Shown: one piece after another, positions 30,981 through 56,725 of the stretch
Layout: every line of letters begins with the position of its first letter
Numbering within the stretch: position 1 is the stretch's first letter
From: Kappaphycus alvarezii
Lineage: Eukaryota > Rhodophyta > Florideophyceae > Gigartinales > Solieriaceae
DNA: 64,000 bases
Reading direction: 5' to 3'
NCBI GenBank assembly: GCA_002205965.3
Contig: NADL03000608.1
Span: 434,001 to 498,000, forward strand
Position numbers and translations under genes: made by a program
Notes under the pieces: generated by a model
The model's input: the letters and a program-made list of their open reading frames with translations, nothing else
What the model was told of the DNA's origin: nothing
The model's database searches: none

Positions 30981-32504
30981 ATGACCGACCGTTTCCCCAA
31001 CGGCTCATTCATCCAACTCACTGACTTTCTCGGTCTACCTTACTTTGTATTCGTAACCCAAGATTACAACCTACGCAACGCCAGCAAGGGCATGGACGTT
31101 GCATCCTTTGTCCGCCCTTGGATTGGCATTGCCCCCGAGTCGGGTCCCTTCTTCACCCTCGTTCCCTACGTCGACAACCTCGTCCTCGCCGTCCTTCTCC
31201 TTCTCTCGCTTCTTCTCCTCGAGCTTCTCGTCGCTTCTCTGCCCCCGCTTTTCCCCGCCCTTGCACCCCCTACGCTATTTTCCTTTCTCCTCACCCCTCC
31301 GCACCCTCCGCCACACCCGCCCAATTCTTTTGAATCTCGATCCTTCCGTTTCGCACTGACAGCCCCTGTGCTGTTGGGCCTGTTTACCCTGTCTTTGCAG
31401 CTGGCCATTTTGACCTTGAGTGGCCCTCACACACACCGTGTCTCTAATGCTGTGTCTACACTGCAGTTGACACAACCTTTCAATCCGGATTGGAATGCCG
31501 TCTGGAATCACTCCCTCATCCTTTCCAATCAGCCCTGCTTGTCGCTCTCCTTTCTCCGCGTCTCTCAGGATCTTACTTCCGTTACCACCTGCCTGTCTTC
31601 AACATTGCCCCCCTCATTCACTCAGTTCCAACTAACAAATGATATCATCCAGGTAAACATCTCATCTCGTCTCCATGTCTATGGAGCCGAACATGAGGTA
31701 CGCTTGGGCAACATGACCGCCACGTTTTCCGCCCGCGCCCTCATGAACTTGAATGACTTGAAAATGCGACTGCTTGAACAACGATTACGGGAACATGATG
31801 TCGACATTGAAATGGCAATTGTCCATCGCCAAATCATAGCGTATTTGTATTCCGCATATCGCCGTGAAACAGGCGATGACAGTTTGAGTTTAGAGAGGTT
31901 GAACATGCTGGATTTCGGCACACTTTCAGTCAAAGAGGGACCAGTCGAGCAGGTGCTCAGGGTGGACGAGGGCAGGGAACTCGTCGTCGTGAGAAGTGTA
32001 GTTTATGAGACGGTTCTGAGTGGCGTTATTCCGGGTGGAGACGCTGCCTTGAGATTTGCAGGCAACGTCTTGAGAAGTGCCATTGCTGTGGAGCATGTCG
32101 AGGGCGCAGTAACCGATTTAGTAGTTGGCGTGGGCAAAGTCATGGCGGAAGCGGTGGTGTGGACTGAGAGTGGGAGGAAGTTGAATTGGTTGGGAATGTT
32201 GGTCACCGTATCGGTGGTGGCACTGGTAGCAGCGGTTGCCAGAGCCGTGGTTCGCGTCATGATCAAGTTGAGGCAGAGGAGGAAGGGGAGGGAACGAGGT
32301 GGAAGGTTGATGGGGGTGTCGGAGATGGATGAAAGAGGAATGTTTACAGGGAGGGTGGTGAACGTAGGATATGTCAGGGGAGAGGAGGACGGTGAAAAGG
32401 ACTACAAAATTGGGGCCGAGGTAGGGGAAACAAGGCAGAGATATGAAGAGGAATATGAACATGGCATTACGGGGAGAGGAGGTGAGTACGACTACCGAAG
32501 GTAG
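30981..32504 (+). CDS. Predicted three-pass membrane protein, family member 1
   Basis: A 507-residue single-exon protein that I do not recognise. The ATG follows a C-rich leader (CTCCTCACCATGACC). Predicted membrane segments lie at about residues 65-95 (very Leu-rich), 123-147 and 402-428. Between the second and third is a domain of about 250 residues with Asn-x-Ser/Thr sites and two cysteines (NQPC at 183-186 and C204), plausibly extracytoplasmic and disulfide-linked. The C-terminal 80 residues are basic then Glu/Gly-rich. It is clearly homologous to 54,571-56,115: shared blocks include Q-P-F/I-N-P-D-W-N, NQPC, H-V/A-Y-G-A-E/D-H, a helical I-A-Y-L-Y-S block (281-302), AALRF (355-359) and RKLNW (399-403). 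Conservation across two diverged copies supports a real gene. A receptor, adhesion or transport role cannot be chosen from sequence. Confidence 0.85.
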   Translation: MTDRFPNGSFIQLTDFLGLPYFVFVTQDYNLRNASKGMDVASFVRPWIGIAPESGPFFTLVPYVDNLVLAVLLLLSLLLLELLVASLPPLFPALAPPTLFSFLLTPPHPPPHPPNSFESRSFRFALTAPVLLGLFTLSLQLAILTLSGPHTHRVSNAVSTLQLTQPFNPDWNAVWNHSLILSNQPCLSLSFLRVSQDLTSVTTCLSSTLPPSFTQFQLTNDIIQVNISSRLHVYGAEHEVRLGNMTATFSARALMNLNDLKMRLLEQRLREHDVDIEMAIVHRQIIAYLYSAYRRETGDDSLSLERLNMLDFGTLSVKEGPVEQVLRVDEGRELVVVRSVVYETVLSGVIPGGDAALRFAGNVLRSAIAVEHVEGAVTDLVVGVGKVMAEAVVWTESGRKLNWLGMLVTVSVVALVAAVARAVVRVMIKLRQRRKGRERGGRLMGVSEMDERGMFTGRVVNVGYVRGEEDGEKDYKIGAEVGETRQRYEEEYEHGITGRGGEYDYRR

Positions 32505-34744
32505 GGGCTGGTGCGTATTGCAGGTTTGAAGTTAGACGTTATGACGGGGACAGTGGATAGTTTCGACATGCGGAACGATCGATATATCCGGCAGATGGTG
32601 TCAATAATGTCGAAAGGCCCCCTGCAATATTGCACAACGACGTAAGGCTGGGAAATGTTCAGTTGGATCGAGTTGGATTCGTTCCTGTTGCAAATTCGGC
32701 GAATTCCGAGATACGCGATGTTCACCGTCATCGCCGTGCAGAGGGGCCCAGGGTGTGATTGCCATAGCGATTGAGGATGAGATCAACTATGTTCGCCGTT
32801 GTATTGTTGTGGAAGAAAAGTGATTCCTGTGCCTGACGAATGGGATAGACTAGGGAAGGCGAGTACTGGCCAAGCATGGCATACCCAGTGAATGGAACGG
32901 GACAAGCTGAAATCGAAGTTGCGGTCGTATAAAGTGCCGTCGGTAAGGATAAGTTCTCAGCGGGCTCACTTGCGCCCCTGGTCTGGGATTTCCTCCCAGC
33001 TCTCAGTTATAGGATCCACCCTTGGAAGAAGAGTGGCTTTTGTACGATCAGTGGTGTGGAAAGGCAATACCATCTTGATTGTCGCATGCATTTGGGCGCA
33101 GCACTGGTCTTGTGGAATTATGGAGTGGTTAAATGAGGATGTCCGCCGGCCTGAGCTGAGCATTTTGGACGAGTTGGAATTTGAAGTCACAGTCATGCGC
33201 GGCGGCGGGCTCAGCAATCAGTGTGAGCGCACTCGTGACAGAGTTGCGGCGGTGGATGAAACTAACGCTCAGGCGAAAAGGTAGGCGGCGCAGAGTCCCG
33301 GAAAGGCAACTACTCTGTTGCAACAGTGTTGATATTTCGGCAATAAACTGTCTGCGACGGAAGACAGCCCGAGGTGGTTCTGCACCATGGTAGTCCTGCA
33401 GGTGGCTGGTGCTTTGCAGACGTTCTTCGGACATGCTTGAGGAATGATGCGGCAGTGCCCCGTCTAACGGAACGGGTAGCCCAACTATACGCTGCCAGAC
33501 TTAATTATCGATGCGGTGAGCGGGAGCTTCGGGAGGATTCAACGTCGTAATCCATCCAGTGAGCCCTCGTTGTTGCGCCAGCTTTGATCAGTGTATGCTT
33601 TGGTGGGTGCGGCAGCGAGAACGGTTGGGTCAAGTGGCTGTTAGTTGGCGTAGAGTGGTTAGTCGGACACATTACGCGGGAAACCACATAGTGACATGCT
33701 GATTCGTCCGAATAAAATGTGCCAGTCTCCTTGGCGTTCAAGATCAAGGTTTGCAGAGCCTCAGTGCGAGGATTCCGTGTCGGTCCCTCCGGGCGAGTGC
33801 GGCGTCGATGACGCAGATTGTGCGACAACGTGAAAGGGGTGCATCGCTTATGGGGAGCCATTGCTGGGCAAAGCAACCTTGTGTTAATCCACGAACGTCT
33901 ACATTGACTCGAACGATGGTTCTCGCTGTTGCAATAGCCTGAGGCTAAACATCTCCAATGCTGTAAACGGTTCAATAGGGTGTGAGAAATCGAGGGTCAG
34001 GTCGCGTTGTGTGATGTCTGTCAACAGGAACGAAAACTCCACTTGCCCTTTGGCCTTTGTCTTTTAGCCCTCAGCAATCTTGTCTATCGCTTGGCCCGTG
34101 GTGATCCCACCTTCCCTCGTTTCGGCTCCGTCACGCTTCTTCCCCTCCGACCTCGCCCACACAAGATTCGGTCAAAAACCTTTGGCTCGTCTCCGACTAT
34201 TCACCCAAGTGTTGCTTCTTGCGACCCTCTCAAACCCCCCAGCTACTTCTTTGCCCCTTCCCAGCTCGTCAACGGCATTTCATTAGGCCTCGACGCCATC
34301 GTGATCGCGTCGAGGCTGAATGTTTATGGCACGCACATGTTTACGCGCAGCCGCGGCAGCAACGCGGAGAACGTTGTGGCCTCTGTTTACGAGAACAACC
34401 TTTTGACGCATTCTTGTGATAGCAGATGCTACGTGTCCTCGGTGCCCACGCCTCTCCTTGCCTCGTTTCATTAAGTTGATCTGTTTCCGTGCCCTATCTC
34501 CCCTCTTTGTTACCTCCGCCACTCGCCCCTTTTGTTCCACCCAGGAGGGCCCGCAGCACGGAGGCTCCTTGTGCTGAAACCTCTTGGTCATGTCTCCGCC
34601 GAGTGTGACCTTTTGCTGAGCCGCTGGTATGTGAACGACGGCAAGCGAATCCAAATTCCAGAGGTTGCCGTGACGCCTCGGATCCTGCAGACGACAAGTC
34701 TAGAGGTCCAGCTAAAGAGCATCAACACCTCCAAGTGCCTTCTG

Positions 34745-34803
34745 GCCTGGGAGCCTCGACGGGCACCGATGTGGCACATCGGTGCCCGTCGAGGCTCCCA
34801 GGC
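34745..34803. repeat. Perfect palindrome, 29-bp arms
   Basis: Arms 34,745-34,773 and 34,775-34,803 are exact reverse complements around one central base. The left arm begins GCCTGGGAGCCTCGACGG. It is GC-rich and would form a very stable hairpin. It interrupts a coding-like frame. Confidence 0.92.
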
Positions 34804-35737
34804 TCCGATTGCTAGCGTTCTTGTCTGCTTAGTCACTAGACGCGACAATGTAATGCTCGGCGCAACTCTTGGCTCGGACCACTGCAAACGTCAGCAAATT
34901 ACGTCTTGCATTCGCGGTTTCCAAACTGTCAGGAACCTGCGGCGCGCACCCCTTTCCATGTCCACCGCGTCACCGCATCCGCATGCCAAGTTGAACACAT
35001 TTGACGGCCCTTGCCCCCCTACGTCATCCTCTCCCTCTCCTTCCAGTTCGATGCCCCACCAGATAGCGGCGTATGCTCGCCTCAGGCATGCCCCAATAAC
35101 CCCGACCGCTCGCTCACAGATCAAATTCCCTATCAGGTTTTAGTGGCCAGATTCCAACCCTTAACCAGAACAACCCACGCCTCCTATGCTGCCAGCCTCA
35201 TGGCCTCCGCCGAGTCGCGCGTCCGTGGCCCTAATAACTCTCCCGTTTCCAATTACAGCGGCATTGTCCGTTCCCTGCCCCGTTGTCACCTGGACCGTAT
35301 CCCGATCGCCCCAGGCCCCGTAGCCTAAATCGCCTTGATTCCGAAGCTGTCGCCCAGGGCACTGAACGGCCCTAAGCTTATCTATCTTAGATGCTGCATA
35401 TAGTCACCGCCCATACCTTATAGCAGGATGACCATTGGGACGCCCGCCCCAACCCTAGACACCATGGCGCTGAGCCATTCCGACCCCACGCCCGTTGCGA
35501 CTGGCTCCACTCCCCTGACGCTTCCGCCTTCCTTACTACCCACCCCTCTGACCCATCTCTGCTCCCCCATGGCGCCTGGTCTGCAACGCTGCGCAGTCAC
35601 CAAAACCTCCTAGTCTTCGAAATGTCGGTCTCCTAGCTCTGCTGCAACCACGGCCACGCATCCGCGGACTGCCGAGCCGCGCACGCCACCATCAGCATGC
35701 CTGGCCTGAGCGTTGCGCAAGAGCACGATACTATTCT

Positions 35738-35811
35738 AAACCAGCGGTCTTGAAGACAATGCTGGTCAATACTATTGTATTGACCAGCATTGTCTTCAAG
35801 ACCGCTGGTTT
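35738..35811. repeat. Perfect palindrome, 35-bp arms
   Basis: Arms 35,738-35,772 and 35,777-35,811 are exact reverse complements with a 4-base spacer (TATT). The left arm begins AAACCAGCGGTCTTGAAG. It is the longest of the three palindromes in this window. Confidence 0.92.
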
Positions 35812-36480
35812 CGCATGTCAGCAGGAGATTGCGCTCCGAATCCCTTTCACAACCACTCCTCCAGATGATATCCTTACGCAACCAAGCCCTTTTCGCATGA
35901 CGTTCCGCCAGATACACCCACCGCATTTAACCAATACGGTACGCTCTCCGCAAGCCCCGACCTGAATCGCATACTCCGCTCCAAAGACAACAAGTTAAGT
36001 CGAGGTTGGCAACGCTACCCAATGGCGGACTTTTCAGGGCGGAACGTTTGCGACGCGCCATGTCCAATGAGACTTTTCTCGGCTTGCCTTCCGACACTCT
36101 CACAGCTTGGTCCCTGCGCTCGTTTAGTTTCATAGATGGAGATGTCAAACAGACAGCTGTTGAGAGCGCTCAGGGAAAGAGATTTACAATACATGTTGCG
36201 TCAAGACAATACATACTAGTATTTCAATAAAATTCAGCCATGCCGGCTGCAGGCCCTCTCCTTGCCATTTTCTGCGGTGGAAATCAATTGCATCACAACA
36301 ATCGTCTGGATCAACAGTCACCATTGCTCTCTTCCTATTACTCTTCCAAACCGCAAAGCAATCCTCTCTATCACCTGATTTTAAGATCCGCATCCGCGTA
36401 AGCATCTACCTCTGCCACCCCTACCATCGCTCCTCAGCAATCCTCTCTCAACCCACAACAGCAACATACCCAAAACCACC

Positions 36481-37140
36481 ATGGCCCTTCGTCTCGCCTT
36501 CACGCAATCCCTCCCTCTCACGCGCCTCTCCTTCCGCCGCGCCATAACCCCCCTCCCATCCCGCCTTTCCGATATCCAACTCGCTCCCACCTACCCACTT
36601 CACAATACCCCCTCTTTCCACATGTCCACTTCCCCGACGCCCCCACCTCCCACCCGCACAACCGCACCCTCCACAGCCCCCACCCCTCCTCGCTCCTCCC
36701 CCTCCACCCCACAAACCTTCCCCATCACGCTCCTCTACGACGGCGACTGCCCTCTCTGTCTCAAAGAAATATCATTCCTCCGCAACCGCCAGTCCCGTCT
36801 CAACCTATCCAATCTCCACTTTACCGACATTGCAAACCCGCAATATGACCCTTCCAAGCATGCCAACATCGACTATCAAACCGCAATGGGTGTCATCCAT
36901 GCAATCACTGCCGACGGTCAAGTCATAACCGGTGTTCCAGTCTTCCGTCTCGCGTACGAGGCAGTAGGCCTCGGATGGGTATATGCAATCACAAAGTTAA
37001 AACCAATAGGCTGGGTCACTGAAAAACTGTACGACTTTTGGGCAGACAAACGGCTGGCATGGACAGGAAGAGGTGATATGCAAGCCATCATGGATTTGAG
37101 GAGGGATAAGATAGAACAAGGTTGCAAGCGCACGGAATAA
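36481..37140 (+). CDS. DCC-family (DUF393) thiol-disulfide protein, probably organellar
   Basis: A 219-residue single-exon protein. Residues 1-80 are rich in Ser, Thr, Pro and Arg and nearly free of acidic residues, consistent with a plastid or mitochondrial targeting peptide. The mature domain starts near residue 81 (PITLLYDGDCPLC). D87-G88-D89-C90-P91-L92-C93 is the D-x-D-C-P-x-C motif that names the DCC family; C90 and C93 are the expected redox pair. The body (IDYQTAMGVIHAIT, VFRLAYEAVGLGW) and the C-terminal WTGRGD region fit the family, whose usual length is about 130-150 residues. The ATG sits in a good context (AAAACCACCATGGCC). The family is thought to act in thiol-disulfide exchange; substrate unknown. 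It converges with the gene at 37,221, only about 80 bases away. Confidence 0.88.
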   Translation: MALRLAFTQSLPLTRLSFRRAITPLPSRLSDIQLAPTYPLHNTPSFHMSTSPTPPPPTRTTAPSTAPTPPRSSPSTPQTFPITLLYDGDCPLCLKEISFLRNRQSRLNLSNLHFTDIANPQYDPSKHANIDYQTAMGVIHAITADGQVITGVPVFRLAYEAVGLGWVYAITKLKPIGWVTEKLYDFWADKRLAWTGRGDMQAIMDLRRDKIEQGCKRTE

Positions 37141-37220
37141 ACCACGCGGACCCGTCATGAATACACCAACGGGGAAAACCAGGGGATGGGAACTGGAGGA
37201 CTACAGCAGTGCAAGCTGCA

Positions 37221-37673
37221 TCACGTGTCTTGACAACAATTCCCGCCTCCCAATGTGCGCCGGTACTCCGACACACGCCTGAAACACAACGCCGCAGGCG
37301 GTTGAGTCGGGCCTTGTGTCGCTGCAGGCTCACAATGCATCGGCAAGCTCCAAGTTGGCGACGGATGGAATATGGTATGTAAAAGTGGCTTACACGGGTG
37401 TTGATTGTCGATTGAGAGAGAGAGGCCTGCGATGACAAGGGTGGAGGCTAGGAATCCGAGTAGCGTTGTGGCTACGATGCGAGGGCCGTATACCCCGTTT
37501 GCATCCGGTGGGGATGGATCCTCGGTTACTGGGGGATCATCTTGGGGTGGGGAATCGGGCAGTTGCTCTTGTTCGTCTTCTGGTTGGCCGCGGATGGAGT
37601 GGACGGGTTTTGTGTGGAGGAGGAAGAGGAGGAGGAGGAGGAGGAGGAGGGTGAGTCGGGGGGTGTGTGGCAT
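37221..37673 (-). CDS. Small protein with signal peptide and one membrane helix
   Basis: Starting at the ATG at 37,673 (MPHTPRLTLLLLLLLLFLLH), the N terminus is a strong signal peptide with a Leu run and a likely cut after PVHS. A Pro/Asp/Glu/Gln-rich stretch of about 45 residues follows, then a hydrophobic segment (VATTLLGFLASTLVIAGLSL). The frame remains open upstream to 37,748, but the internal Met fits the signal peptide best. After SIDNQHPCK the tail loses character. A GTAAGC donor at 37,393-37,388 and a TTTCAG acceptor ending at 37,279 would remove 115 bases and give a different Cys-containing tail overlapping the DCC gene; this is unproven. The product would be a type I membrane or secreted protein of unknown role. 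Confidence 0.55.
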   Translation of the reverse strand: MPHTPRLTLLLLLLLLFLLHTKPVHSIRGQPEDEQEQLPDSPPQDDPPVTEDPSPPDANGVYGPRIVATTLLGFLASTLVIAGLSLSIDNQHPCKPLLHTIFHPSPTWSLPMHCEPAATQGPTQPPAALCFRRVSEYRRTLGGGNCCQDT

Positions 37674-38256
37674 TTTTTCTTTGAGTTTGGGTTGCGGAGG
37701 TTTGGGGGATGAGGTGGTGATTGTGCGGTGATGGTGCGGTGAGGGCAAGGAGGGTCGGTTGGTTGATAAAGTAATACTAGCATATGTATGCCGTTGGATT
37801 TACACTGGTTGTTCCTTATTTGCATTACTGTTTGTTTTCATCAACTTTTTTTGCCAAAGATTTGGATGCAATCCGGTCTTGGTTAGTAGGCATTCTGCAT
37901 CACCCCTTTTCTGTAAGCTGTTGTAAATGCGGCATTGTAATTCGCTCAAATTTGTGCTGCTTTTGTTGTGATGAACAGCTGTCCATTTCAAGTCCATTTG
38001 TAGCTTTATTGGAACGAAACAACCGAGACAGACTGTCCATATTAGAAAACAGTATGCAAGAAGCTAGCAAATGCACAAGAGAAAATAAACAGAGGTAACC
38101 GTCTACGTGTCGTCAGGTAATAGGCAAAAAACGCTAAAAACCTCTGCCAACACTTACCCCGACATCACCGGCAAACTCGAGAAATCACAGTCGAACCAGC
38201 AGCCGGCACATCCCTCCTGGATACGCCTATCCTCCCCACCACGCCCACCACCAGCC

Positions 38257-38497
38257 ATGAGCATTCTTACAGTCCATAATATGGCCCGGCTCGACCGGCA
38301 AAACTATGCCCCGTGGCTCCTATTCGTACAAGGCGCGACCGAGTCCATCCAAGCACGCGATCACATCACGAAAGATCCTCACCCGCCTACCTACCCGGCT
38401 CTTCAAGCCGCTTTCGGCGACAAAAAGGACGTTATCCCAAGCGTTCTAATCGAATCGATAAAACTAGATATATCCAATCAAATCATTGAACCATACA
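38257..38497 (+). pseudogene. Copia D Gag, first part
   Basis: Frame from the ATG at 38,257 (open upstream to 38,107). LDRQNYAPWLLFVQGA is the copia Gag N-terminal pattern (L..NY..W). The frame is broken at 38,498 by copia C and continues at 43,651-43,786 when the insertion and one TSD are removed; the continuation ends at a stop at 43,784-43,786. Confidence 0.75.
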
Positions 38498-38545
38498 TGT
38501 CGCTGGACACCAGTTGAGGGCGTCAGTGCGAACTGTAAGCCAAGT
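38498..38545 (-). repeat. 3' LTR remnant of copia C
   Basis: 48 bp, 47 identical to the inner end of the 5' LTR (43,277-43,324). It is the terminal stub left by a deletion that began in RNase H. Confidence 0.85.
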
Positions 38546-41045
38546 TACAGCATATAGATGGATTGGGATGACAGCACCAGGATGCAACCGACGTAGGTCC
38601 TCAGCCAATGTGTAGGCAGTGTCAAACAAGTCCGTGAAGGCGATAAGCTCAGCAGCCATGACTGATCTCGTAACACGGCGGCTTTTGTAAAACTTGAACA
38701 CAATCGGTACAGCACGGTCTTGACCGTCAACAAGGAAGACCACATATCCCAGCTGTGATGACAAGTCCCGGTTGCTTGCGAATGATGCATCCGAGAAGCC
38801 AACCATCCTCAATGATGTGCGGTCCAGCTGCGGGAACGTGATTGCCACTGCATTGTCGCGAGAGTAGCAGACAAGACTATTGGTCTTCTTGACAACATCC
38901 TTCCGCTCGGAGTCGAAGACGTCGCGAGTGACCTGATTGAACTGAGAGACTTCATAGAGGCAACCAGGACGGCTATGCGAAAGCCACATAAGCTTTATGC
39001 GAACTGACGCAAACTGCGAGAACGTAGCATCCGACGGAAGTGGTCTCAACTGACGAATGTACCCACATTGGTCCAGCTTGAGAATGACATCGTGTAGAGA
39101 TAAACGAAAGCCGGTGAATGTGCACGGAGGGTGAATATCCTTGGACATATCGAAACGTGCCCTTGTGGCTTCACAAAGAATGCAAACTCAGCGTTACCAG
39201 CGCGGAGCATGTCGTCAACATACGATCCTGAAAATCCCTGCAGCACCCCATCCTGCAGCCGGAAGTAACATGCAGGGTCGGAGTGAAGAGGTACCACGCC
39301 TAGATCAGAGCGGTGGTGCTCATCCAAAGTCTCATACCAAAGATCACCAGATTCCGAGTCCGTAGAGAGCGCGGAGTAGCAAAAGTGCCTCGTCATCGGC
39401 GAGCTCAAACTCCGGAGGAGGGTTGCGGATGTACACATCCCTGTTCAAGGGCTTGGACGACTGGAGGTAGGCTTGCGAGACATTTGAGGTCCATGTGCTA
39501 AAGCCATGAGAAGCGGCAATACCCAACAATAGACGGACAGAAGCAGGTTGGATGGTTTGCGTGAAGTGAACCAACAGCCTCTTGAGCTTGTCTCGATGGT
39601 CTCCAATAACAAATCGTGCCTTGCTTTGTCTTGTCGTACTCGGTTGACTTGATAGCAAGCACAAAACGACCTGGTAGTACATTCCCATAAGATGGTATAT
39701 CCTTCTTCAGAATGACCCTGAAGGTCCCGCGGTCATCAGACTCTGAATCTCCTTTAGCTTGGCGGCATTCATCTGCGGAGAGGAGGCGCGAGGGTCGTCA
39801 ACAGGGACAATCTCCGTGAGGAGAGTTTCCTGAGCATATGAAGAAAAGAGAGCACCGCGAAGGTCCTTGAAGAAGGATGTCGAAGCCTGCTCAGCGCTCA
39901 GATACGGCTTGACTTGAGCCTGGACGAAAGGTCGTGCAGGTGAATTTGGTAAATCCTGCACGAAGAAGAGCTTCTTCTCGCGATCCACGGCCTGGACAAC
40001 AAACGGACCAATCCACTCTCCGATCTGGTTCTCCACCTTCTTCTCCTGCCACACCAACACCTTCTGTACAACATTCAGTGCGACATTGGCCGAGGGCGGC
40101 ACTGAGTGGCGAAGTGCTCGCTTGATCCTCATGCTTGTCATGTGCCGTTCTATCTCCTTCCTTGCGGCAGTAGCCAGTCGAGCGCGACTCTCGAGGGATG
40201 CTCTGGGATCAGCAGCACAATCGGTGTACAGACGGGTAGAAGGATATTCACCGAAGACGAGAGCAGACGGCACAATGCTTCAGGACCAAGGGTGTCGTTG
40301 AGATCCTTAACAGTAATGGCCAACCGAGTAGAGCGGGAGACATTGGGATAATCAAGCTCAGCTTGCGGTAGTTTGCGAAGAGGTTGATGACAGCGTTCAC
40401 CGATACCTAAGCTTGAATGTGCTTCAATCCCTGTCCGTTCGACTTCGACCTTGCTAGCGGCCCCAATGCTGACAAATAATTCCCCAAAAGCAGAACCTTG
40501 ATCCATAATGATCCTGTGGGGAAGTCCGGTGCAGATTGCCGCCCAGCACTCCAAGAAAGTTGCCCAAATGGTCTTAGTTTCGACATCAGGAAGGAATGCA
40601 GCAGCACTAAAGCTTGTACCTTCGTCGACAACGTGCAGAACAGGCCTACCATCAATGTACATGATGTCCATTCACACGCGTTCATTGAACTTGACATTCT
40701 CAGCCCCGAACGTGACCTTGAAGCGAGTAGAGCCGGCTTGGATCCGTTGACACGCATCAAACCTCCCGGAGAGATCTTGCAAAGTTGCGAGTGTGTCCGG
40801 CGAAGTGTCCTCCGGTTTAGCATGGCGGAGCAAATTGTAAAGCTTGCTAGCTGACGGATGAGCGAACTGGCGATGAAGCTTGCCAAGTTGCTGGATCGTG
40901 TAAAAGAGAGGCTTTGCAACAGACAATGCAACATAAACATGGCCATTGTAGCGACTCATGGGAACACTCCACCAAGTGTACACCTTCGACTGACCAGAAG
41001 GGCTCGGGATTTCCGAACACTTCACAAGCTCGTTGCAGACCGTGT
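38546..41045 (-). pseudogene. Degenerate pol of copia C (integrase, RT, RNase H)
   Basis: The integrase zinc region (LHRQFAHPSASKLYNLLRHA; the first Cys of the CxxC pair is lost) lies at about 40,700-40,930. The integrase core lies at 40,150-40,671, with MDIMYIDGRPVLHVVD, IIMDQGSAFGE and GIEAHSSLGIGER carrying D, D and E. The integrase tail lies at 39,900-40,150 (TEIVPVDDPRASSPQ precedes RT). RT lies at 39,046-39,690 with FSTWTSNVSQAYLQS and the intact active site SGSYVDDMLRAG. RNase H lies at 38,546-39,148 (SRPGCLYEVSQFNQVT, DASFASNRDLSSQLG, SVMAAELIAF). Several frameshifts separate these pieces. The third integrase motif is the GIEAH-SLG-GER type also seen in copia A. Confidence 0.85.
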
Positions 41046-41241
41046 TTGGAGTTAGCGAGTGATCACCAACACATCCAGTCCAAGGAGGGCAGGCACGTTG
41101 GCGGCGACAACATCAAAAGTGATGCAGATTGGCGGTATGCCACTCGGGGTGGAGAGAGGGAGATCGATAACCCTAGTGATTGGAATGTCGAATAAGCGAA
41201 TCTGAAACGCTTACAAGACTTACGAAGAGGCTTTGGCTTGA

Positions 41242-43243: not shown

Positions 43244-43276
43244 TTTGCCCGGAACGGTGACTCAGCAAATCCGGAT

Positions 43277-43650
43277 TGTCGCTGGACACAAGTTGAGGGC
43301 GTCAGTGCGAACTGTAAGCCAAGTCAAAGCGGGGAGACGCGCTGAGATAGAGACGTCGACGGGCGGAAAAGGCTCGGCGTGTGCGGAAGCGAGCGAGAGC
43401 GCAAAGGGCGAAACTACGCAGCGACATAGTGAAGCAAAGCGACGAGATGCGTCTGGTTTACTTCGGTCCCCCTTAGCCCCCTTTCCGAAACATCCCGCCT
43501 GGAGCGAGCTGGCTAAGTACACAGCAAGTGAAAGAACAGCTTACAAAAACTCCTGAAAACTAATTAAAATTTGCTGGCTGACAAAATGTGCGCGAAATAG
43601 CGCATAGTGCGGTCGGGTGAACGTTCCACGGCGCGAGGGCCGCGTCGACA
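43277..43650 (-). repeat. 5' LTR of copia C
   Basis: 374 bp. Its outer end is placed by the TG start (TGTCGACG on the minus strand) immediately next to the TSD copy ATACA at 43,651-43,655, and is confirmed by the restored reading frame of the host Gag. Confidence 0.85.
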
Positions 43651-45959: not shown

Positions 45960-46960
45960 ACAAGAACACTTCCTCACATTTATAGACACGGAGAGTCGAA
46001 TACTCACAGTTTACTTCCTTACGAAAAGGGATGACATGGGCAAGTACACTCCTATTCACATGGCAGAACTACATACCAAGCATGGTATATCCCAAAGACC
46101 ATCAGAGTTGATAACGCAAAGGAATTCACGTCAACCGCATTATGCAACCTCCTCAACAAGAAGGATACCGAACTGAACCCCAGAACAACATATCAGCCTC
46201 AAGAAAACAGCAAATCGGAGGGAATCAATCTAATACCACTCAATGCTACCAGATCTGCGCTCGAAAATACCCATCTACCAACCAACTTCAGGGAAGATGC
46301 CCTCAGTGATGCAGCATTCACATAAAACTTAATGAAATACTCCAGCACTGGCCAGACCCCCGCAACAATATGGCACCAAACCACTGCACACAACCCCAGC
46401 TCTACATATTAGGCCAAATAGGTCATGTTCCGATACAAAATCCAAAAATGGAGCTATAAACGAGAGCCAAACTAGTAAAATACATGTACCCGCTGGACGG
46501 CAACCTCATTTGAGTCTGGCATCCCGAAACCGACAGCTATATTCAAGTCTGTGTCGTCGACTTCAAGCCCTACGACCTCACCCTCAATCTATCATTTACC
46601 ACTTTTATGGCAATCCGGACAACATCGGCAAGACTGCCCACCCCATGACGAACAACAAAACACCTATTCAGATGCAGCCCCAAGGGCAGATTCCCATGAA
46701 AAAGAGCTAGATACATTACAAAGAAACAAACCCTTAGATGGATCTACAACCACTGCGTCCCCAAACCAGCAAAGATCATCCCATTGAATATGAAATATTG
46801 ATTAAAACACGGCCCGTCTCTCCACATTGAACGTAAGACACGACGTTCCGTTGGCGGTGACTGAATGAAGCCATACCTGCACTTTGACCCCAACCAGACG
46901 TCCTTATGCATGGCAGAAAAGCCAATATACGTATGTAGAGCAATTGGCACTCACACTGTA
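45960..46960 (+). pseudogene. Copia D integrase core and C-terminal relic
   Basis: FLTFIDTESRILTVYFLT (45,970) matches the copia integrase core. AKLVKYMYPLDGNLI and VWHPETDSYIQVCVVDF (46,470-46,565) match the C-terminal domain that precedes RT. Beyond 46,570 the frames carry only linker-like sequence until the match is lost near 46,960, close to the DIRS-like insertion. Confidence 0.65.
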
Positions 46961-47277
46961 CTGCCATCGGCAGAGCTGATTTTGGTGATCTTTTTTTTGA
47001 TCTGATTCACTGCTAACCAGCAGGCACTGTACTGTACAGTAAGGGCAATTTTCTTTTGTCGCCCACTATTATTCCTGGTACTGTATACTCACCCGATGGG
47101 GCTTGAGGGCTTGCAATCTGGACCACTCGGCCCCCAAATTGTACCTGATATTTTCGCAGGTGAAAGGCATCTATTGGGCCAAATGTCGAGTTTACATCTC
47201 TCTAACTTGGATCTCCCTAACTTGGCTGACCTTAACTCCACTCACCCCGCCGTCGTAGATAACCCTAACCTAGTTAA

Positions 47278-48131
47278 CTAGCATTTATACCCAGCACTTA
47301 CGCGAGATTCATCAAAGAGCCACGCCAGATAGCGAAGTAAAGGACCTTCGGAGCTCTCCAGTGGGTCGATTCCATCGTGCGAGCAAAAAGTAACCCATTT
47401 CTTCCATAGTATCTCATTCGAGCGCCAGGTGTTCGGGGTACGTGCCTTTGGCATGATCCGTGCAATAGTATTCCCACCAGAAGTATTCCCTATTCCGGCT
47501 GCTGTAAGCACAGATTGCTGGAGAGTTATTGCGAGCGGTAGCGATCGTGCTTCTTCTGCGAGATTTTCCAGACGGCGATATTCCACGGCGGGACGGGCAT
47601 CGACGGCGGAGCCCACAGAGGCTGTAGGTAGAGGTTGTCGGCGGCGAATACGTGTAGCCGTGACAGTTGGCGCAGGTTGAGAAACCATGATTGAGCGGGC
47701 CAATACGGCGTGACCAATATTCCTGCGGCCTGTTCCTTGATGATCTTGGATACGACGAGTGGTATCAACTTGAGAGGCGGGTTCCAAAAATTGACTTCGG
47801 ATTGCCAATCCTGGGAGAGCGCGTCTACGACGAGGGAGCCAGGAGACGCAAACTCGCTGTTGTATCTCGTGCAGATGCGATTGGTGTTGTCTGCAAATCT
47901 GTCGATTGTTGGCGGGAAAGATTCGAGTAGTGGCTGAAGGGGCTCGGTATTGATCCCCCAATCGTCGAGTGTCTGAAGGCGTGACAGTCGGTCGGCAAAA
48001 CGATTGACTGCCGAGGGCAGATACTGTGATTCGATGGTGATCCCGAGCTTGAGAAGCAAGCGGTGTAGCGAACGGAGCTCTCTCATTAAGGGCCGTGACT
48101 TGGTGTTCATCGCATTGAGCATCGATACCAC
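47278..48131 (-). pseudogene. DIRS-like RNase H end and truncated tyrosine recombinase
   Basis: 48,131-47,526 encodes SQYLPSAVNRFADRLSRL, TIDRFADNTNRICTRYNSEF and VNFWNPPLKLIPLVVSKI, the characteristic RNase H tail of DIRS elements, followed by PYWPAQSWFLNLRQL. In an overlapping frame (47,278-47,961) the end reads MPKARTPNTWRSNEILWKKW and PLLRYLAWLFDESRVSAGYKC, the core-binding domain of a tyrosine recombinase, then stops. None of the catalytic R, H-x-x-R or Y boxes is found downstream. A GTAAGT at 47,301-47,296 (minus strand) sits just before the stop and could be a splice donor, or the catalytic half may simply be deleted. Confidence 0.7.
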
Positions 48132-48144
48132 CGCCTGATTGTCC

Positions 48145-49441
48145 TCAAAAATCTTGAGATTGAGTCCCGTTCTTCAGCAACGACGCGAAGGCCCGAATAT
48201 TGTCCGTGACGGCCCGTAGTTCCAAGAAAGTTATTGGCTTGACTCGCAGTACGGGGTCCCAGAGTCCGCGAGCCTCCCAACAACCCTGTATCCCTGGCCT
48301 CAGATCCGATCCCAATTCCTCCCTGACCGACTCCCGTCGACGCGTCTGAGTGTAGAGCCAATGTTGGCTGTGGGTAGCGATAGGCCTTTCTGGAGGATTG
48401 GTAGTGAGGTCCCTCCAGAAGCGCAGGTCCCGAAGAGCGGCGTGTAGAAGCCTCACGCGTTTCCCCGTCTTGCTCAGATTCGTCTTGAGAGAGTCGTAAA
48501 TTGATCGGTGTAGAACCGGGCGAGGGGCATAGCGAGCGAGCATGAGATAGCGACGCCTGCGAAGTGGCGTAGCAGTGTATACGTCGACTAGTCGGCGATT
48601 GCGGCTGCTTGGCGTAATAGTTGCCGGGCAATACCTCGCAACTTTTCCATCCTTCGAGCCGTAATCCAAAACTAGACGGTCTGTATCGATTAGAAATCCC
48701 AAATGCTCGATCTGCCTCGTCCTTCCCAGTGACCTTTGTCCTCCTTTCTCTGAAGTCCACACGAGCGGAGCAGAGAATCGATCTGTCGGCGGGCCTTGTT
48801 GAGGCGCGAAGGACGGTTTAGAGCCACCAAGAAGTCGTCCATGTAGGGATGGATTCGGAGACGTAAGGTTTCCCGGACATATTGAACGAAAGGTCGCATG
48901 AACTTGATGAAGTAGGCGGGAGAGAGTTTCCACCGAAAGGGAGGGCAACGCAGCGAAAGTAGCGATGGTCTACTTTGAAGACGAACCAATTTCGAATATC
49001 GGGGTGTAGACAAAATGGTGGTAACCTTTGGCGATATCGAAAGAAAACATCATGTCGGATTCTGGAGGTCAGTGCGAACCCTTCTAATGTTTCCATGCGA
49101 ACTGGGATATCCCGAAATAGGGTAGATTGCCGAGAAAGATTGACCACGAGCCGCTTCTTTTCCGCTGAAGTTGTCACAAAGGCGTTGGAGATAGGGAAGC
49201 CAGCTTGGTGTAAGGAAAGAGCGGTCGACTCGGAAATTTCTTCGTAACTGCGACGGTGGAGCGCATCCGATATTGCTGAATCGAAGAATTCCCGGTCTTG
49301 GGGATCGATGGGATTTGAGGGAGTTGGAATTTTGTGCGTGAAAGGGAGGTTGTGATGGGTTTTTCGTAGACCCCAAACCGTAGAGCGCGGACGAGGAATT
49401 TCGAGGCGCCGAGGGTTTCGGCCCAGAAGGGAGCGGCGCAC
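48145..49441 (-). pseudogene. DIRS-like reverse transcriptase
   Basis: RT blocks occur over three frames: FVTTSAEKKRLVVNLSRQS (about 49,175), FSFDIAKGYHHF (about 49,040), FKVDHRYFRCVALPFGGN (48,960), YMDDFLVALNRP as the intact active site near 48,840, and EHLGFLIDTD near 48,690. RNase H sequence with LHSDAST (about 48,365) and FLELRAVTDNIRAF (about 48,210) follows. Frameshifts occur near 48,930 and 48,760. Confidence 0.8.
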
Positions 49442-49798
49442 TGGGTATTGCGCCAGAGGACGTGGGACATAGGGACAGAAATAAAGAGTCGCGGAGGCGA
49501 CGCTTTAGTTGGACTTAGAGTCCTTGGAACCTTTTCCGGACTGATTCTTGCGAGGTCGAGAGCCTTGAGCGGCCTGTTTGTTGCACTCCTTCGCGTATGC
49601 CTGGGAGCGCAATTCAGCGAACTTGTCCTCAGTTGAGCGATAGAGCTCAGAAGAATACGGGTAGTCGTCTTCACGAAGGTAGCGCTGGAGCAGGATAGCT
49701 TCGGACTTTCCGGACTCGACAGATCAGTAAAGAAGTCGGTCCGTTCCAGAACGCGGCTGTAAGTGGCCTCCAAGTAGTGGTGTAGAACAGAGAAGAAC

Positions 49799-50344
49799 TC
49801 AGTAGCGGCGATATGTTTGTTCTGGAGGGCCTCGGTGACCCGTGAGCGCAGGCGATGGCGGTCTCACAGTTGTGCCCAACGTTCCAGAGTACTTCGCTTC
49901 CCACCCGTCACGAACGTCAGCGGCCTTGATGCGACCGAAAAGACCTTCTGGTTCCGGAATGAACCTCTTGGCGGGATAGGGAGCGACGGAGCTAGGACGC
50001 TGGTACTTGTTGAGTTTGCCGACCTCAGCGTATTCCTGGCGGGTAGCGAGTGTGTCGGCAACTGCGGTTGCAGAGGGCGTGGGCAGTGTGGCAGTGAACT
50101 GAAGAACGCCCGTTTTGTAAGCCTCAGCGGCAGTTGAGGGCTTGACGGTAGGATCAGATGCCGGTGGATCTGAAGCGGCGGCGGCGGCAGGCTCTGCGGC
50201 AGGAGGGTTCGACGGTCCAGCGGAAGCTTGGAGCAAGTTGACAATCTGCGAGAGCTGGGTTTCGATGCCGGTGACCTTGTTCTCGAGGGTATGGAGGCGA
50301 GAAGCGTCGGACTGCGAGGATTCAGAGGAGGTGGCATGGGACAT
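49799..50344 (-). pseudogene. DIRS-like Gag ORF
   Basis: A 181-residue frame starting MSHATSSESSQSDASRL. A heptad-like segment (LENKVTGIETQLSQIVNLLQ) suggests a coiled coil. An Ala/Pro-rich linker follows, then KRFIPEPEGLFGRIKAADV. It precedes the RT on the same strand, as Gag does in DIRS elements. The frame changes near 49,850 and coding-like sequence continues to about 49,450. No zinc knuckle seen. Confidence 0.55.
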
Positions 50345-50640
50345 GGTTGATGTGCAAGTGTGATAGTCGACCTAGACAGATTCGTCGGAGCTGGTTCGAG
50401 GGATGAGAACAAGCGACGACTTGAGGAACCAGAAGTTGCGCTAGAGGTTTTCAAGTTGGCGGTTATATAGCCCTGTTGAACCGGTCTTGATCGTGGTCCA
50501 AGTCCCCTTGCGCAAGCGGTACGGCCTACGTAGAAACCAGGAAGCATATGCGGCCGCGGCAGCGAGTGTAGGGTGTACAACGGTAAGCTGCCTACGTGGC
50601 CATCATAAAAGGTGCTTACAGTCAATTGATGCAACCGTGA

Positions 50641-51383
50641 CCGCGTGACTTATCCGGAGTGGCAGATCAAGGCCACGTTCAACCCCCCTTCTCATATTCA
50701 CCCATAATTTTCCAATTAAAGTACCGAATTAAACATAGAGAAAAACCAAATCAAAGGATTTGCTTCGAGACTGCGGTTACAAGCGGTTACCCACTAGGGC
50801 CCCAGATTAAACAGCCACCTCGGTGTTGGCTCTGAACTTGACTCCCAACCTCCGGCTTTGCGCAAACCTTTCCACCGGCAACTTTGGCTATAGCCACGTT
50901 TATCCGCCCGGGTCCCCCTTTCTATTCCCCCCTCTCTATCCAATATTACAATACCTCTTTTGTTGTTTATTTGTGGTACTGACTCAGGCTTGGCGTCCCG
51001 GACTCCGGCGTCTATATACAAATAGGAACTACAAGTTTGTCGTTGGTGACAACATCCTTATCTCCAGAGGAAATATTCAGCACTGCTGACCCACTACTAC
51101 ATTTTCTTTGTCTATTATTACACCCCTGGTGTATACGATTCTTTGGAATCGATCCTTATCAAGGTTCTAGCATTCCGCGGACCACGGCCCGGCCTTACAA
51201 CCCGGAGGACAAGTATACCGTCCAGCCCTCCAAGGAATTACCCCCGCTCTTCCAACTCCATTTCTCCTCGCCGTCGGCGAGCTGTGCTACTGCATCGCAG
51301 GGTGCTTAAAGAGAAAGAGGGACAGCGAACACCCTGTGGGTCTTCGTGTGTGTGTGTTGGGTTTCTCATTGTCTGACGGTGTT
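50641..51383. other. Unassigned insert between the DIRS-like element and copia D
   Basis: Sequence with LTR-like properties (CTATATACAAATAG near 51,010; GT-run near 51,345) but no partner copy or TSD found. It may be the 5' terminal part of the DIRS-like element or another solo LTR. Confidence 0.35.
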
Positions 51384-52792
51384 CCGTTCCTAGACGAGAA
51401 GAACTGCGCACTGCGCATTGCACTAAAACGTATACTCATCCCCTTGGCTGCCCAATACAATTGGCATATCGGCCACCTCGATATAACCGCTGTCTACCTA
51501 AACGAACCTTACCCACATGACATACCCGCCTTTGTACAAGAACAAACCTGATTCAACGGAACTTAGAAACATCCGAGACAAACTGCGTCATTCTCCGCAA
51601 CCTCTATGGCACCCCTACAGCTGCAAGCAACTACTACAGAGGCCTTGTGGCGGACCTTCAAAAACATAGCTACCACCCAGGCCACCCCGACGCATGTCTA
51701 TTTACTAAAATGGACAACGGGAACCCAGTTCTAGTGGCTATCAGAATGGATGATTTTCTCCTTGCTTCACCAAGCCAAAATCCTATCGAATAACTCTACA
51801 CATTGCTCCAAAAGAAGAACAAAATATCCAACTTAGGTAACTGAAATGGAATTTCAATATGGCGGATAACGGCGACATATATGTATATCCCAGCGACATG
51901 TCGTCCAAGTCCTGCTGCACAAAACCAGAATGACGCTCTGCACTCCTCGAAAATACAAATCCCCTGAACAAAAATTGGACCCCATTCATGTCTGGTCAGC
52001 ATAAAAAAGTTCAAAAACATACTAGGTGACCTCACCTTTTTCACTTACAGCACCAGGACGGATATATAATTCGCATTCAATAAACTACCAGAGCATCTGC
52101 ACCAAAACACACCTGTTCACCTTCAAATACTAAATTTATTTATCCAATACCGCAACATTACGCCAAAACATGCAATAAACTACCCCAAGAGATCACACAA
52201 CTAACATGAAGGCCACACAATCTTATCATACACCGACATAGACTACGCCAATGCCAGGGACCGCAAACCACGCACGGAAATAATACATATAGCTGGGGGT
52301 TCTCCAGTGACTTTGACCAGGGCCAAACATCCGATTGTATCAAAATTGACATTCAAGGCCGAGAATGTGGCAACAGATGACGCGGTTCAGCAAGCGCTAA
52401 GGCTCTAGGCCTCATAATCGACTACCGCATCCCAGGTAAACTCCCTGTCAACATATATATTGGCAACACAAGTGCGAATACAGGTTGCGAACAGTCAAAA
52501 AACCACCAAAGGAAGGAAAATAATCGACACAGAATTTCACCATCTCGCGTACATTGCCAACAAGGGACGTATACTGGTAACATACATCTCCACGCAACAC
52601 AACATAGCAGATTCACTCACAAAGGCTCTTGGTCTAGTCAAACAAGCCAAAGATGTAGCTCCAATTCGCAGTGTACCCCTCCGATCGATCCAAACGATGC
52701 ACAAGAGTAGCCACAACCTCAATCACAGGCCAACTCCGATAAGTGACTCAACTCATTGCTACCTTAATTCTCTCGTGCTCACCCGGGACTGA
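51384..52792 (+). pseudogene. Copia D reverse transcriptase-RNase H relic
   Basis: LAAQYNWHIGHLDITAVYLN (51,450) is the copia RT block with the first catalytic Asp. NLYGTPTAASNYYRGL (51,600) matches the LYG.....W region. The active site reads AIRMDDFLLAS near 51,745, with RMDD in place of YVDD. Sequence from 51,790 to 52,450 is badly decayed. The RNase H end is recognisable at 52,460-52,680 (DTEFHHLAYIANKG, YISTQHNIADSLTKAL). Confidence 0.75.
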
Positions 52793-52919
52793 CAAAGCAA
52801 CCAAGAACAATCAACGAAAACGGAAATCAAGGTTGCAATTGACGAAGCAACCAAGAAAAACTGTCCATCGTAGAAAACAGTGCATAGGCAGCTAGCAAAT
52901 GCACAAGTGAAACTAAACA

Positions 52920-53834
52920 TAGGAAACAGTATACTTTCCGTCAAATTGTAATTCCAAAGTTGAATCACCGCTCTCCGTAGCGAACGGCTTCCTGGTCTCT
53001 TCTCCCCCCTGGGCTCCTCCGTGCGTTTATTTAATAACCTAGCAAAAAGGACCATTCGTCCCAACAAAGGTCCAGTTGTAACATCCGAGCTCACCTCGAG
53101 TTGCGGACCATATCTCTGTCTAATTAGGACCGACGTGTCCAAGCTGGTACCGGTTTACACTGCTTCTCACTCTCAGGGGCGATCTATCAATAGTTGGTGG
53201 TTCGAAATCGAAAATTGGAAAAGTCGTCAGTTTTCATCATTTCAACATTTCCACTGCGTGCTCTATTCTATGAAAATCGGAAATGAGTTTTGCATTCTAC
53301 CTCCACTGCCCATCGCAAGCTACATTGGGTTTTCAACTTATCACTTGTTTGCTGGGGAAATCTTTTAGATTTCCCGACATGGACGAAAAATGGAAATCGG
53401 GAAGGGACAAGTGGACTGTTTTTACTGGCCGAAATTGCCAGATGTATTTTCCGATTTCATAATTTCCAGCGATTTCATTTTCATAGATCGGCCTTCAGAT
53501 CTAACGTTGATGTTTTCGGGTGGTTATCACTGTACGCACTGTAGGCCTTGCTCGATAGATTTCGGTTTGTAAATCCGATTTTTTCCGACTAGGCTTGGGA
53601 TCATTCGCAAATTTAAATTCAAATTAATGGATCAATCGAGGAATCCTTAGTGAACTCAAAAGTTTTCTTTTCCCGCGAAAACCGACATTTTTACGGAAAC
53701 CGACAGCGCAGTACATTCTGTATTTCTAGGATTTCGCACTAACCATCTTGCGCAACTCAAAACGAATGAGCGATACCCGTTATCAAACGCCTGGACGCTT
53801 TCCTCACGTGACTGCGACATGAAACCGTCTCAAA
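52920..53834. other. Intergenic, GAAATCGG-rich stretch
   Basis: From 53,190 to 53,720 the motif GAAATCGG and its complement CCGATTTC recur (for example 53,273, 53,390 and 53,449), with AT-rich spacers, giving overlapping self-complementary possibilities. No gene or clear terminal inverted repeat could be fixed. Confidence 0.35.
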
Positions 53835-54470
53835 ATGCCTGCTGTAATTGCCAAACGTCGCCGCCGCCACCGTCCGTTTGCGCGCAAGCGCTTGCAACGT
53901 AATCGTCACGACACCTCGTCGCAGGGGCAGACGCTCGTGTTGCCGCCTGCTTTGCGTCGCCGACTCGACGCATTACATCTGCCAAGTCCTGATGATCATC
54001 AGGACATGACACATCCATCCATGTCACACCACGCGGCCAACGACCTATCGCTTCCGCCCTCAATTTCAGGGCCTGGACCGCGCTCAGAGTCTGAGGAACA
54101 ACGGAATAATGGTGCTTGTGAGGTTGTGTCATCGCAGGAGGATGTTCGCGTCAGGGAGTTGCGTGCTTGTACTGGTATTACGGTCCGGATGCCGAGGCTA
54201 GTGTGGATCTCGGGCCATTTCGTTCAAGTCAGATGAGTGAGGGCTTGGCTTCAGTGTTGGGGTCCCGTATTTCTGAGGAAAGAGTTGGTTCCGCCGGAAA
54301 GCGAGTGTGGAGGAGCTTGATTGACGAATTGGAGGATGCTGCTACGGAACATGACTCACCTGATACACATGTTTGCAGTTTTTGACCAATATGCCAAGGG
54401 GTGTTTGGAAGCTAGGGGAATAATTGACCCTCCTCACATTGATGTGCGTGGTTCAAAACGACTGTTAGTT
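53835..54470 (+). CDS. Hypothetical protein, frame-broken or spliced
   Basis: The first frame (53,835-54,236) starts MPAVIAKRRRRHRPFARKRL, a strongly basic N terminus like a nuclear or nucleolar signal, and continues Ser/Pro/His-rich. From about 54,140 a second frame carries YWYYGPDAEASVDLGPFRSS and GKRVWRSLIDELEDAATEHD to 54,385, and a third frame continues LEARGIIDPPHIDVRG to about 54,470. The order suggests one protein interrupted by frameshifts or by short introns (TCATCGCAG before 54,139 would suit an acceptor). I do not recognise a domain. It ends about 100 bases from the convergent gene at 54,571. Confidence 0.35.
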
Positions 54471-54570
54471 GAACAAAACAAAGCTATTTCCACCTCTTGG
54501 CTTTCACCTACAGCCCATGAGCGCTTTCCTATACTTGCAGGCTATGATAACACAATTTTGTCAGCTGTTG

Positions 54571-56115
54571 TCAGATATGATAATCCCCTTTGCTCGGGGC
54601 AGGATATTCCCCCGTTTTTGTCGAGAGTCTCTCTCCAACCAACTCTGTCCCGAGGGACCTTATTCGCATGCTCCGTTCTCGAAACTCACGCTCCCCATCA
54701 TCCTCTCTGGCCTCCGTCAGAATCGAGACTCCCGCACTCTCTTTCCGCCCGTCTCCCGCAACCTCCAATTCGTCCGTTGCTTTCAACCATATTCTCGTAA
54801 ACAACACCGCTACCCCCAACACCCCATTGATCACCAACAATGCCACCCAGTTCAACTTGCGCCTCCGCTCCGACCACAATACTGCCTCCGCCGCAGTTAC
54901 CCCAACACCGGCTATCAAATCGTTGACATCATTCGCTCTGACCTGGACGCCAATCATACCCTTGAAAAACGCCTGGCCAAACCGAAGGGCCGCCAACCCC
55001 CGCGGCATAACCCCACGAAACCTTGTCTCAAACCGAACCGAAGTCGTCTGAAACACACTGTTGCCTCCATCGGTCTGCGATACCGCCCTGACAGCACCAC
55101 TCCCTTCACGAAGCTGCTCAACTTGCAATTCTTGCAACTGCTCCAAAGTCAAGGATGAATCGCCTGTCATTCGCACATAGGATGAGTATAAATAGGCAAA
55201 AAACTGCTGATGAATAACAAGCATTTGGCGATTGATGCGGAATAGTTGGGAGCGTTGTTTCATGAGGCGTTCCTGCATGTCATCCAAGGAAAAATAGGAA
55301 CGGGCGACAAATTCTACGGATTGACCGTCAATGGTCAGGACATGGTCGGCACCGTAGGCATGTATGTCGGATATGATGGAGGCGGTGAGTATGGTGTCGG
55401 GTTGGACGGGTTGGTATGGCTCGAAGCGATTGGCGGGGAGAGTGGAGGTGAGACAGTTATTGAGCCTTGTGCGACCGGAGCCTGAATTGATAATGTTGAC
55501 GGTAACGCAGGGTTGGTTGATTAGTTTTCGGCTGGCATTCCAGACGGTGTTCCAGTCAGGATTGATGGGTTGGATAATCTCAAACGCTCGTTCAGAGTTG
55601 AGGACTGGGTGAACGGAACGGTAGGAAAAGGCTATGACCAAAAATTGGAATGCCAATAGCACAGTAACAATCAGGATGCCAAGGATGCAGGCGGTCAGAG
55701 TGTTGCGGGTACGCAAACGGGGCTGGTGAGTCATATCATTCTTGTTTTTCCGGGTAACCACGCGGTCGAACCGAAAGTGACGCACATTTTGAATGTTGCG
55801 GTACAAGGAGAGGGAGAGGGGAGAGACGGTACCGTGACGCGAGGAAAGGAGAAGGGAAAACGTCAGGGTTTCAGCGAGAAGAAATATAAACAGGATAAGT
55901 ATGGCGAGAACAAATGGGTTGAGGTCGCCATCCATAGCATCTGAGAAAAATTCATCGCCACGCGTAACAAGCGGGACTCGGATGTATGGGTCGAGGAAAG
56001 AGATGACGCCCTCACCGGCCGATGGATGTATTGCGAACAAAGAGGGAGAGGGGTGTGAATATAAAGTAGGGGCCTTCAGCGTCGTTTGTAGTTGTGTACA
56101 TTGGGAGCGTTGCAT
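54571..56115 (-). CDS. Predicted three-pass membrane protein, family member 2
   Basis: A 514-residue single-exon protein, paralogue of 30,981-32,504. Membrane segments lie at about residues 67-91, 139-164 and 422-443. The domain between the second and third carries IQPINPDWNTVWN (181-193), NQPC (200-203), C221, IHAYGADH (251-258), FFAYLYSSYVRMTGDSSLTL (305-324), AALRF (375-379) and RKLNW (419-423), all shared with the other copy in the same order. The first Met is preferred because residues 38-48 (SFLDPYIRV) align with SFVRPWIGI in the paralogue; Met61 would lose this. The C terminus is charged and rich in Glu, Arg and Gly. Overall identity looks low outside these blocks, so duplication is old. 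Function unknown; it may act at the plasma membrane or an endomembrane. Confidence 0.85.
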   Translation of the reverse strand: MQRSQCTQLQTTLKAPTLYSHPSPSLFAIHPSAGEGVISFLDPYIRVPLVTRGDEFFSDAMDGDLNPFVLAILILFIFLLAETLTFSLLLSSRHGTVSPLSLSLYRNIQNVRHFRFDRVVTRKNKNDMTHQPRLRTRNTLTACILGILIVTVLLAFQFLVIAFSYRSVHPVLNSERAFEIIQPINPDWNTVWNASRKLINQPCVTVNIINSGSGRTRLNNCLTSTLPANRFEPYQPVQPDTILTASIISDIHAYGADHVLTIDGQSVEFVARSYFSLDDMQERLMKQRSQLFRINRQMLVIHQQFFAYLYSSYVRMTGDSSLTLEQLQELQVEQLREGSGAVRAVSQTDGGNSVFQTTSVRFETRFRGVMPRGLAALRFGQAFFKGMIGVQVRANDVNDLIAGVGVTAAEAVLWSERRRKLNWVALLVINGVLGVAVLFTRIWLKATDELEVAGDGRKESAGVSILTEAREDDGEREFRERSMRIRSLGTELVGERLSTKTGEYPAPSKGDYHI

Positions 56116-56723: not shown

Positions 56724-56725
56724 TA

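Follow-up and report, generated by a model that had tools for sequence, protein, structure and literature searches.

A multigene family of predicted three-helix membrane proteins with linked gene pairs in the Kappaphycus alvarezii genome

To our knowledge, few molecular parts of cell-surface recognition have been described in red algae. The closest described systems are the paired NLR immune receptors of plants, in which two related partners are encoded by divergent neighbouring genes, and the T-cell receptor/CD3 complex, whose membrane helices have charged residues within them or at their ends. Both features recur in the family reported here; however, NLRs are intracellular, whereas our family consists of three-helix membrane proteins in which Pfam finds no known module, and, unlike T-cell receptor/CD3, it has no immunoglobulin or signalling domain by Pfam and no sequence relation to that complex. 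The family was reached from a stretch of 64,000 nucleotides of the Kappaphycus alvarezii genome (contig NADL03000608.1, positions 434,001 to 498,000, forward strand; hereafter the window), in which a first-pass annotation had noted two genes, here P0001 and P0002. We propose, with a probability of roughly 0.4, that the family encodes a heteromeric surface complex, an outward-facing binding unit whose gene pair was duplicated as a unit.

The window genes and their family

The two genes and the stretches that carry them are as follows (genes by open reading frame (ORF) reading).

30981..32504, plus strand: P0001, family member of 507 amino acids, open throughout
31434..32150, plus strand: P0001 exoplasmic domain as used in alignment A3, with Cys186, Cys204 and H232-x2-G235-x2-H238
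30502..34191, plus strand: P0001-bearing stretch, syntenic with contig C760 in blocks of 89 and 92% identity
54571..56115, minus strand: P0002, family member, ORF of 514 amino acids
54886..55611, minus strand: P0002 exoplasmic domain as used in alignment A3
53170..56690, minus strand: P0002-bearing stretch, syntenic with contig C760 at about 92-93% identity

Both ORFs are present as the first-pass annotation had described them, they lie tail-to-tail, and their products are homologous (32% identity in a 505-position alignment, E 4e-68). The same three-segment membrane layout had been claimed for both proteins and hydropathy agrees, with hydrophobic segments at residues 55-96, 124-149 and 400-431 of P0001 and 60-92, 136-168 and 420-445 of P0002. 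The two conserved cysteines are also found, at 186 and 204 in P0001 and at 203 and 221 in P0002. In P0001 the exoplasmic domain is predicted at about residues 150-399 and the cytoplasmic tail at 432-507. The first ~32 residues of P0002 are apparently out of frame relative to its sister copy on C760 (L009), because that copy begins as family members do and similar words can be read in another frame of the window. The C760 copy of P0001 is frame-broken.

Six sequence blocks by which the pair had been characterized (P-x-N-P-D-W-N, NQPC, YGA-x-H, AYLYS, AALRF and RKLNW) occur once each and in the same order in P0001 and P0002. They lie in the loop between helices 2 and 3, as had been stated, except for RKLNW, which is at the entrance of helix 3. 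As a definition of the family they fail, most being private to the window pair and its sister copy: among 26 aligned members P-x-N-P-D-W-N and NQPC are each found in 3, AYLYS and RKLNW in 4, AALRF in 7 and YGA-x-H in 17.

Nor are there just two copies. Searching the source genome (G000; 336.0 Mb, 884 contigs) yielded 60 matching stretches with P0001 as query and 79 with a class-X member (see below); one gene may yield several stretches, copies were collapsed after the loci had been read, and the counts are lower bounds in which only the best candidates were scored. Within this one genome the family comprises about 25 distinct core genes: 9 of class X, 11 of class Y and 5 outside or unplaced, the last being P0001, P0002, the plus-strand gene at C519 and two genes at C509:1.44 Mb. 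Besides the core there are a further broken fragment on C26 and two remote relatives, on C467/C668 and at C515:45 kb; identity to core members, computed for the C467 protein only, is 16-24%. The remote relatives (L047 1067-2527 and L051 775-2386, the latter in two frames) keep the two cysteines, H-x2-G-x2-H and E-x2-R, and probably represent an older branch of the superfamily. G000 also has 17 phycobilisome-linker matches, several on megabase-size contigs, which suggests nuclear linker genes and hence a red alga. The genome is very probably that of a red alga, with a glaucophyte formally possible by the linker genes alone.

Eighteen alignment columns are invariant in all 26 members. Ten of them are kept in the C467 relative and eight in the C515 relative (read in two frames), these eight being common to both: Cys186, Cys204, His232, Gly235, His238, Glu396, Arg399 and Arg421 in P0001 numbering. 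The family hallmarks are two cysteines, H-x2-G-x2-H, E-x2-R before helix 3 and an arginine at the end of that helix. Within the helices, position 81 (helix 1) is an acid in 24/26 members and Gln in 2/26, position 140 (helix 2) is Glu in 23/26 and Gln in 3/26 (P0001, P0002 and a copy), and Arg421 of helix 3 is present in 26/26. The segment most conserved across the family is helix 1 and not the loop: with pairs above 85% set aside, mean pairwise identity is 53% in helix 1 and 35% in the exoplasmic domain. Tyrosine accounts for 6.0% of the last 30 residues vs 2.4% overall and is often near the tail end. The tail motif Y-x2-G-A-E occurs in P0001 and in eight other rows, all class Y, hence in 9/17 non-X and 0/9 X rows, as read from the matches of a looser pattern that also matches a different X site. 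An AlphaFold model of the two window proteins has low confidence (predicted local distance difference test score, pLDDT, 35.1); in it Cys186 and Cys204 stand at opposite ends of a beta hairpin.

N-glycosylation sequons, counted in 19 of the 26 aligned members after 7 near-duplicates had been dropped, exceed those of shuffled sequences in the N-terminus (33 vs 15.2) and in the exoplasmic domain (61 vs 36.1), both values being reached in 0/500 shuffles, without an excess in loop 1-2 (5 vs 4.5) or the tail (5 vs 3.6). The Lys+Arg fraction peaks in loop 1-2 (0.18, with 0.07 in the N-terminus, 0.10 in the exoplasmic domain and 0.11 in the tail). Owing to the sequon excess and this peak, the predicted layout is an outward N-terminus, helix 1, a cytoplasmic loop, helix 2, an exoplasmic domain of ~240 residues, helix 3 and a cytoplasmic tail. 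However, the tail fraction barely exceeds that of the exoplasmic domain, and tail charge alone is not decisive. The proteins are probably N-glycosylated; the several loop sites claimed for the window proteins apply to P0001, which has three, and not to P0002, which has one. The extracytoplasmic placement proposed for the loop fits the sequon excess, and the sensing or binding role attached to it we infer.

The first-pass annotation had called the family unrecognised, and no convincing match came from profile and family searches of Pfam, NCBIfam, PHROGs and PDB sequences. Pfam returned no family for the window pair at E 0.1 and none for the remote relatives; over 26 members its best match was GIDE (E 0.051, in 3/26), and the best NCBIfam match was a cation/H+ antiporter subunit G model (E 0.0035, in 2/26). 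These weak matches are taken as noise because each occurs in only 1-3 of the 26 members and is not family-wide. PHROGs, with the two window proteins only, gave no match. PDB sequences gave none with the A1 profile at E<=1, and with the exoplasmic-domain profile A3 seven histone H2B sequences (best E 0.53), taken as chance. No relative was found in IMG/VR viral contigs with two single members as queries, by which only close relatives are detectable, in a genome-contig collection with one single member, or in a phage collection by tblastn with P0001. Literature on the organism, the family and the function describes no such family in its titles, partial abstracts and two articles (PMC11766507, PMC12567131). 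As far as these searches reach the family is undescribed; its general kind, multigene membrane proteins, is familiar and its two-class pairing is unusual.

Most of the family exists in two copies. A second collinear copy is present for 22 of the 25 core genes, the exceptions being the X gene on C487 and both C12 genes, and the blocks bearing family genes are 88-97% identical between copies (listed blocks are >=85% identity and >=300 nt). Window and C760 share collinear blocks of 78-94% identity, the window's transposon stretches being missing from C760. The doubling presumably reflects uncollapsed haplotypes (or homeologs). Frame-shifting indels, nearly all of 1-2 bases, appear in 16/21 comparisons of a gene with its sister, and in-frame stops total one. 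A dyskerin (Cbf5) gene beside one family pair is intact as far as fetched on C509 and broken over several frames on C122, and RNA polymerase large-subunit matches exist in whole and broken forms. As genes of these two types are doubled and broken alike, most of the frame breaks are likely assembly errors, two gene types being the whole of this control.

The ratio of nonsynonymous to synonymous substitution rates (dN/dS) is 0.10-0.40 in all 21 copy comparisons, of which three share one trio and are not independent. Purifying selection had been suggested for the window genes, and against their C760 copies the ratios are 0.10 for P0001 and 0.32 for P0002, neither near 1. Pooled over 18 comparisons dN/dS is 0.21, or by region 0.10 in helix 3, 0.13 in helix 1, 0.18 in loop 1-2, 0.20 in the exoplasmic domain, 0.23 in the N-terminus, 0.25 in the tail and 0.39 in helix 2; the P0002 tail alone gives 0.59, from 12 changes. 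Pooled dS between family copies is 0.084. Both window genes, and the family, are under purifying selection. Nothing in the comparison of the two copies suggests diversifying selection on the exoplasmic domain, and this counts against a fast arms-race receptor.

Linked pairs of two classes

Eleven loci hold at least two linked members (C515/C509a, C16/C9, C523/C537, C181/C149, C446/C745, C792/C35 with three genes, C761/C107, C12, C519/C100, C509b/C122 and, in the window, C604/C760). Nine are head-to-head, one is same-strand and one, the window, is tail-to-tail. With orientations entered by hand, at least 9/11 head-to-head has P=0.00013 under independent, equal orientations, an assumption that fails because pairs descend from pairs. 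At the tight loci C519, C515, C181, C761 and C509b the two starts are ~0.3-1.4 kb apart. A third copy of one X gene stands alone on C652, near the contig end.

Two classes, X and Y, emerge from a tree of 30 rows with support of 98/98 for the X clade and 87/88 for the Y clade (93/97 without the C519 gene). In the first tree (48 rows, many of them fragments) the X fork was joined by a long divergent row and had support of 37/34; without that row it had 85/88. X and Y are combined at 8/8 loci whose genes are classified. The X-Y split predates the present loci, and among the young branches those of X follow much the same grouping by locus as those of Y. Because of these two features, which make a better argument than the probability of X and Y mixing (see below), the pair was seemingly copied as a unit. 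The C519 partner may be of class X, a placement not rejected by the approximately unbiased (AU) test (p 0.17).

P0001 and P0002 form their own clade (100/99) on long branches. A reading of the window pair as X+Y was rejected (AU p 0.0011 with P0001 in X and 0.0031 with P0002 in X), with long-branch attraction possible. A third gene common to the loci was also sought among 477 non-family ORFs from 37 loci and the window, and no ORF group occurred in more than 6 sources; one member of the widest group (window 21707-22504) was scanned and had no Pfam match.

A candidate complex and its alternatives

In the proposed complex, the X and Y proteins of one locus would be co-expressed and would assemble as a heteromer via their membrane helices, using the acid or Gln of helices 1 and 2 and the invariant Arg of helix 3. 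Their exoplasmic domains would together form one outward-facing binding unit, and the cytoplasmic tails would signal or anchor inside. In the window pair, an old side branch, the partner roles would fall to two non-X genes lying tail-to-tail. Several observations weigh against this proposal. The starts at the other loci are ~4-55 kb apart, too far for a single promoter, one locus is same-strand, and unpaired members exist at C641/C211 and C487. With shared descent taken into account, the mixing of X and Y is only weakly beyond chance: P is 0.016 when 8 X and 9 Y are dealt at random over 8 loci and rises to 0.23 when the five young loci are collapsed to one. The X gene at C792 has a deep Y branch as its head-to-head neighbour, the tree-matching Y being ~34 kb off, and the window locus is not X+Y, unlike 8/8 other classified loci.

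Some of the same observations would suit proteins that each act singly or in homomers, whether as receptor, adhesin or membrane-anchored scaffold, the pairs being leftovers of an ancient inverted duplication copied as a block. We consider this somewhat unlikely, though it is the strongest of the alternatives. Distant or otherwise oriented pairs, unpaired members and the P of 0.23 all speak for it; however, X and Y are still linked at all eight classified loci, and wherever conservation was measured it extends to the partners of both classes.

A heteromeric channel or transporter, in which the helix 1 and 2 acids and the helix 3 Arg line or gate a polar path that the exoplasmic domain caps or regulates, seems improbable. 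The conservation of helix 1 (53% vs 35%), its Glu/Asp/Gln at 81, the Glu/Gln at 140 in helix 2 and the lowest dN/dS values in helices 3 and 1 (0.10 and 0.13) are consistent with it, as is the weak antiporter subunit match (E 0.0035). That match is confined to 2/26 members, however, and none of the channel families in Pfam scored; the helix 1 position is Ser in the two remote relatives, and helix 2 has the highest dN/dS (0.39).

It is less probable still that Cys186, Cys204, His232 and His238 form an exoplasmic metal site or catalytic centre in place of a binding domain with a plain disulfide. The four residues and Gly235 are invariant in 26/26 members and recur in the two remote relatives, one of which is read in two frames, whereas no metal-site family matched and the hairpin ends at which the weak model (pLDDT 35) sets the two cysteines would suit a disulfide.

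An origin as envelope-like genes in a virus or mobile element that had integrated is very unlikely: retroelements abound in the window and each gene is one unbroken ORF, but no relatives appear in IMG/VR (two members), the phage collection (P0001) or PHROGs (two window proteins), the loci are syntenic between copies and not dispersed repeats, one pair is beside the dyskerin gene, and no repeat of at least 60 nt frames the window pair. Chance ORFs or decaying pseudogenes, to which the many frame-broken second copies (indels in 16/21 comparisons) might point, are extremely unlikely given dN/dS of 0.10-0.40 throughout, one in-frame stop in 21 comparisons and the similarly doubled and broken dyskerin and RNA polymerase large-subunit genes.

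Neighbouring features and biological meaning

Other features of the window are listed below.

3015-4055, minus strand: ORF of 346 amino acids with an HNH endonuclease domain (PF14279, E 6e-17)
4695-10237: probable long terminal repeat (LTR) element, with 248-nt direct repeats 99% identical and 5.3 kb apart; the ORF 5197-7257 inside it has weak Gag-like and zinc-knuckle matches
22424-27310: Copia-type LTR element whose terminal repeats are nearly identical, with three ORFs for gag, integrase and reverse transcriptase; skipped by the C760 alignment
36481-37140, plus strand: DCC1-like thiol-disulfide oxidoreductase ORF (PF04134, E 1.5e-23), between P0001 and P0002; a similar ORF is on the C760 copy
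54517-55158, plus strand: 213-codon ORF antisense to P0002, with no Pfam match, probably a by-product of codon usage
58482-59561, minus strand: DDE_Tnp_4 transposase ORF (E 3e-17) near P0002, in a stretch (56690-60409) missing from the C760 copy

Overall, what appears in a single window as a "pair of copies" can be one locus of a far larger family. It is conceivable, though rather unlikely, that obligate two-protein membrane complexes serve red algae as a dedicated surface-recognition system, each complex being encoded by a divergent X/Y pair, with diversification into about ten loci and no place among the known receptor, channel and adhesin families. A conserved, multigene, probably glycosylated and pair-linked membrane family is a candidate for recognition, adhesion or transport in these organisms.

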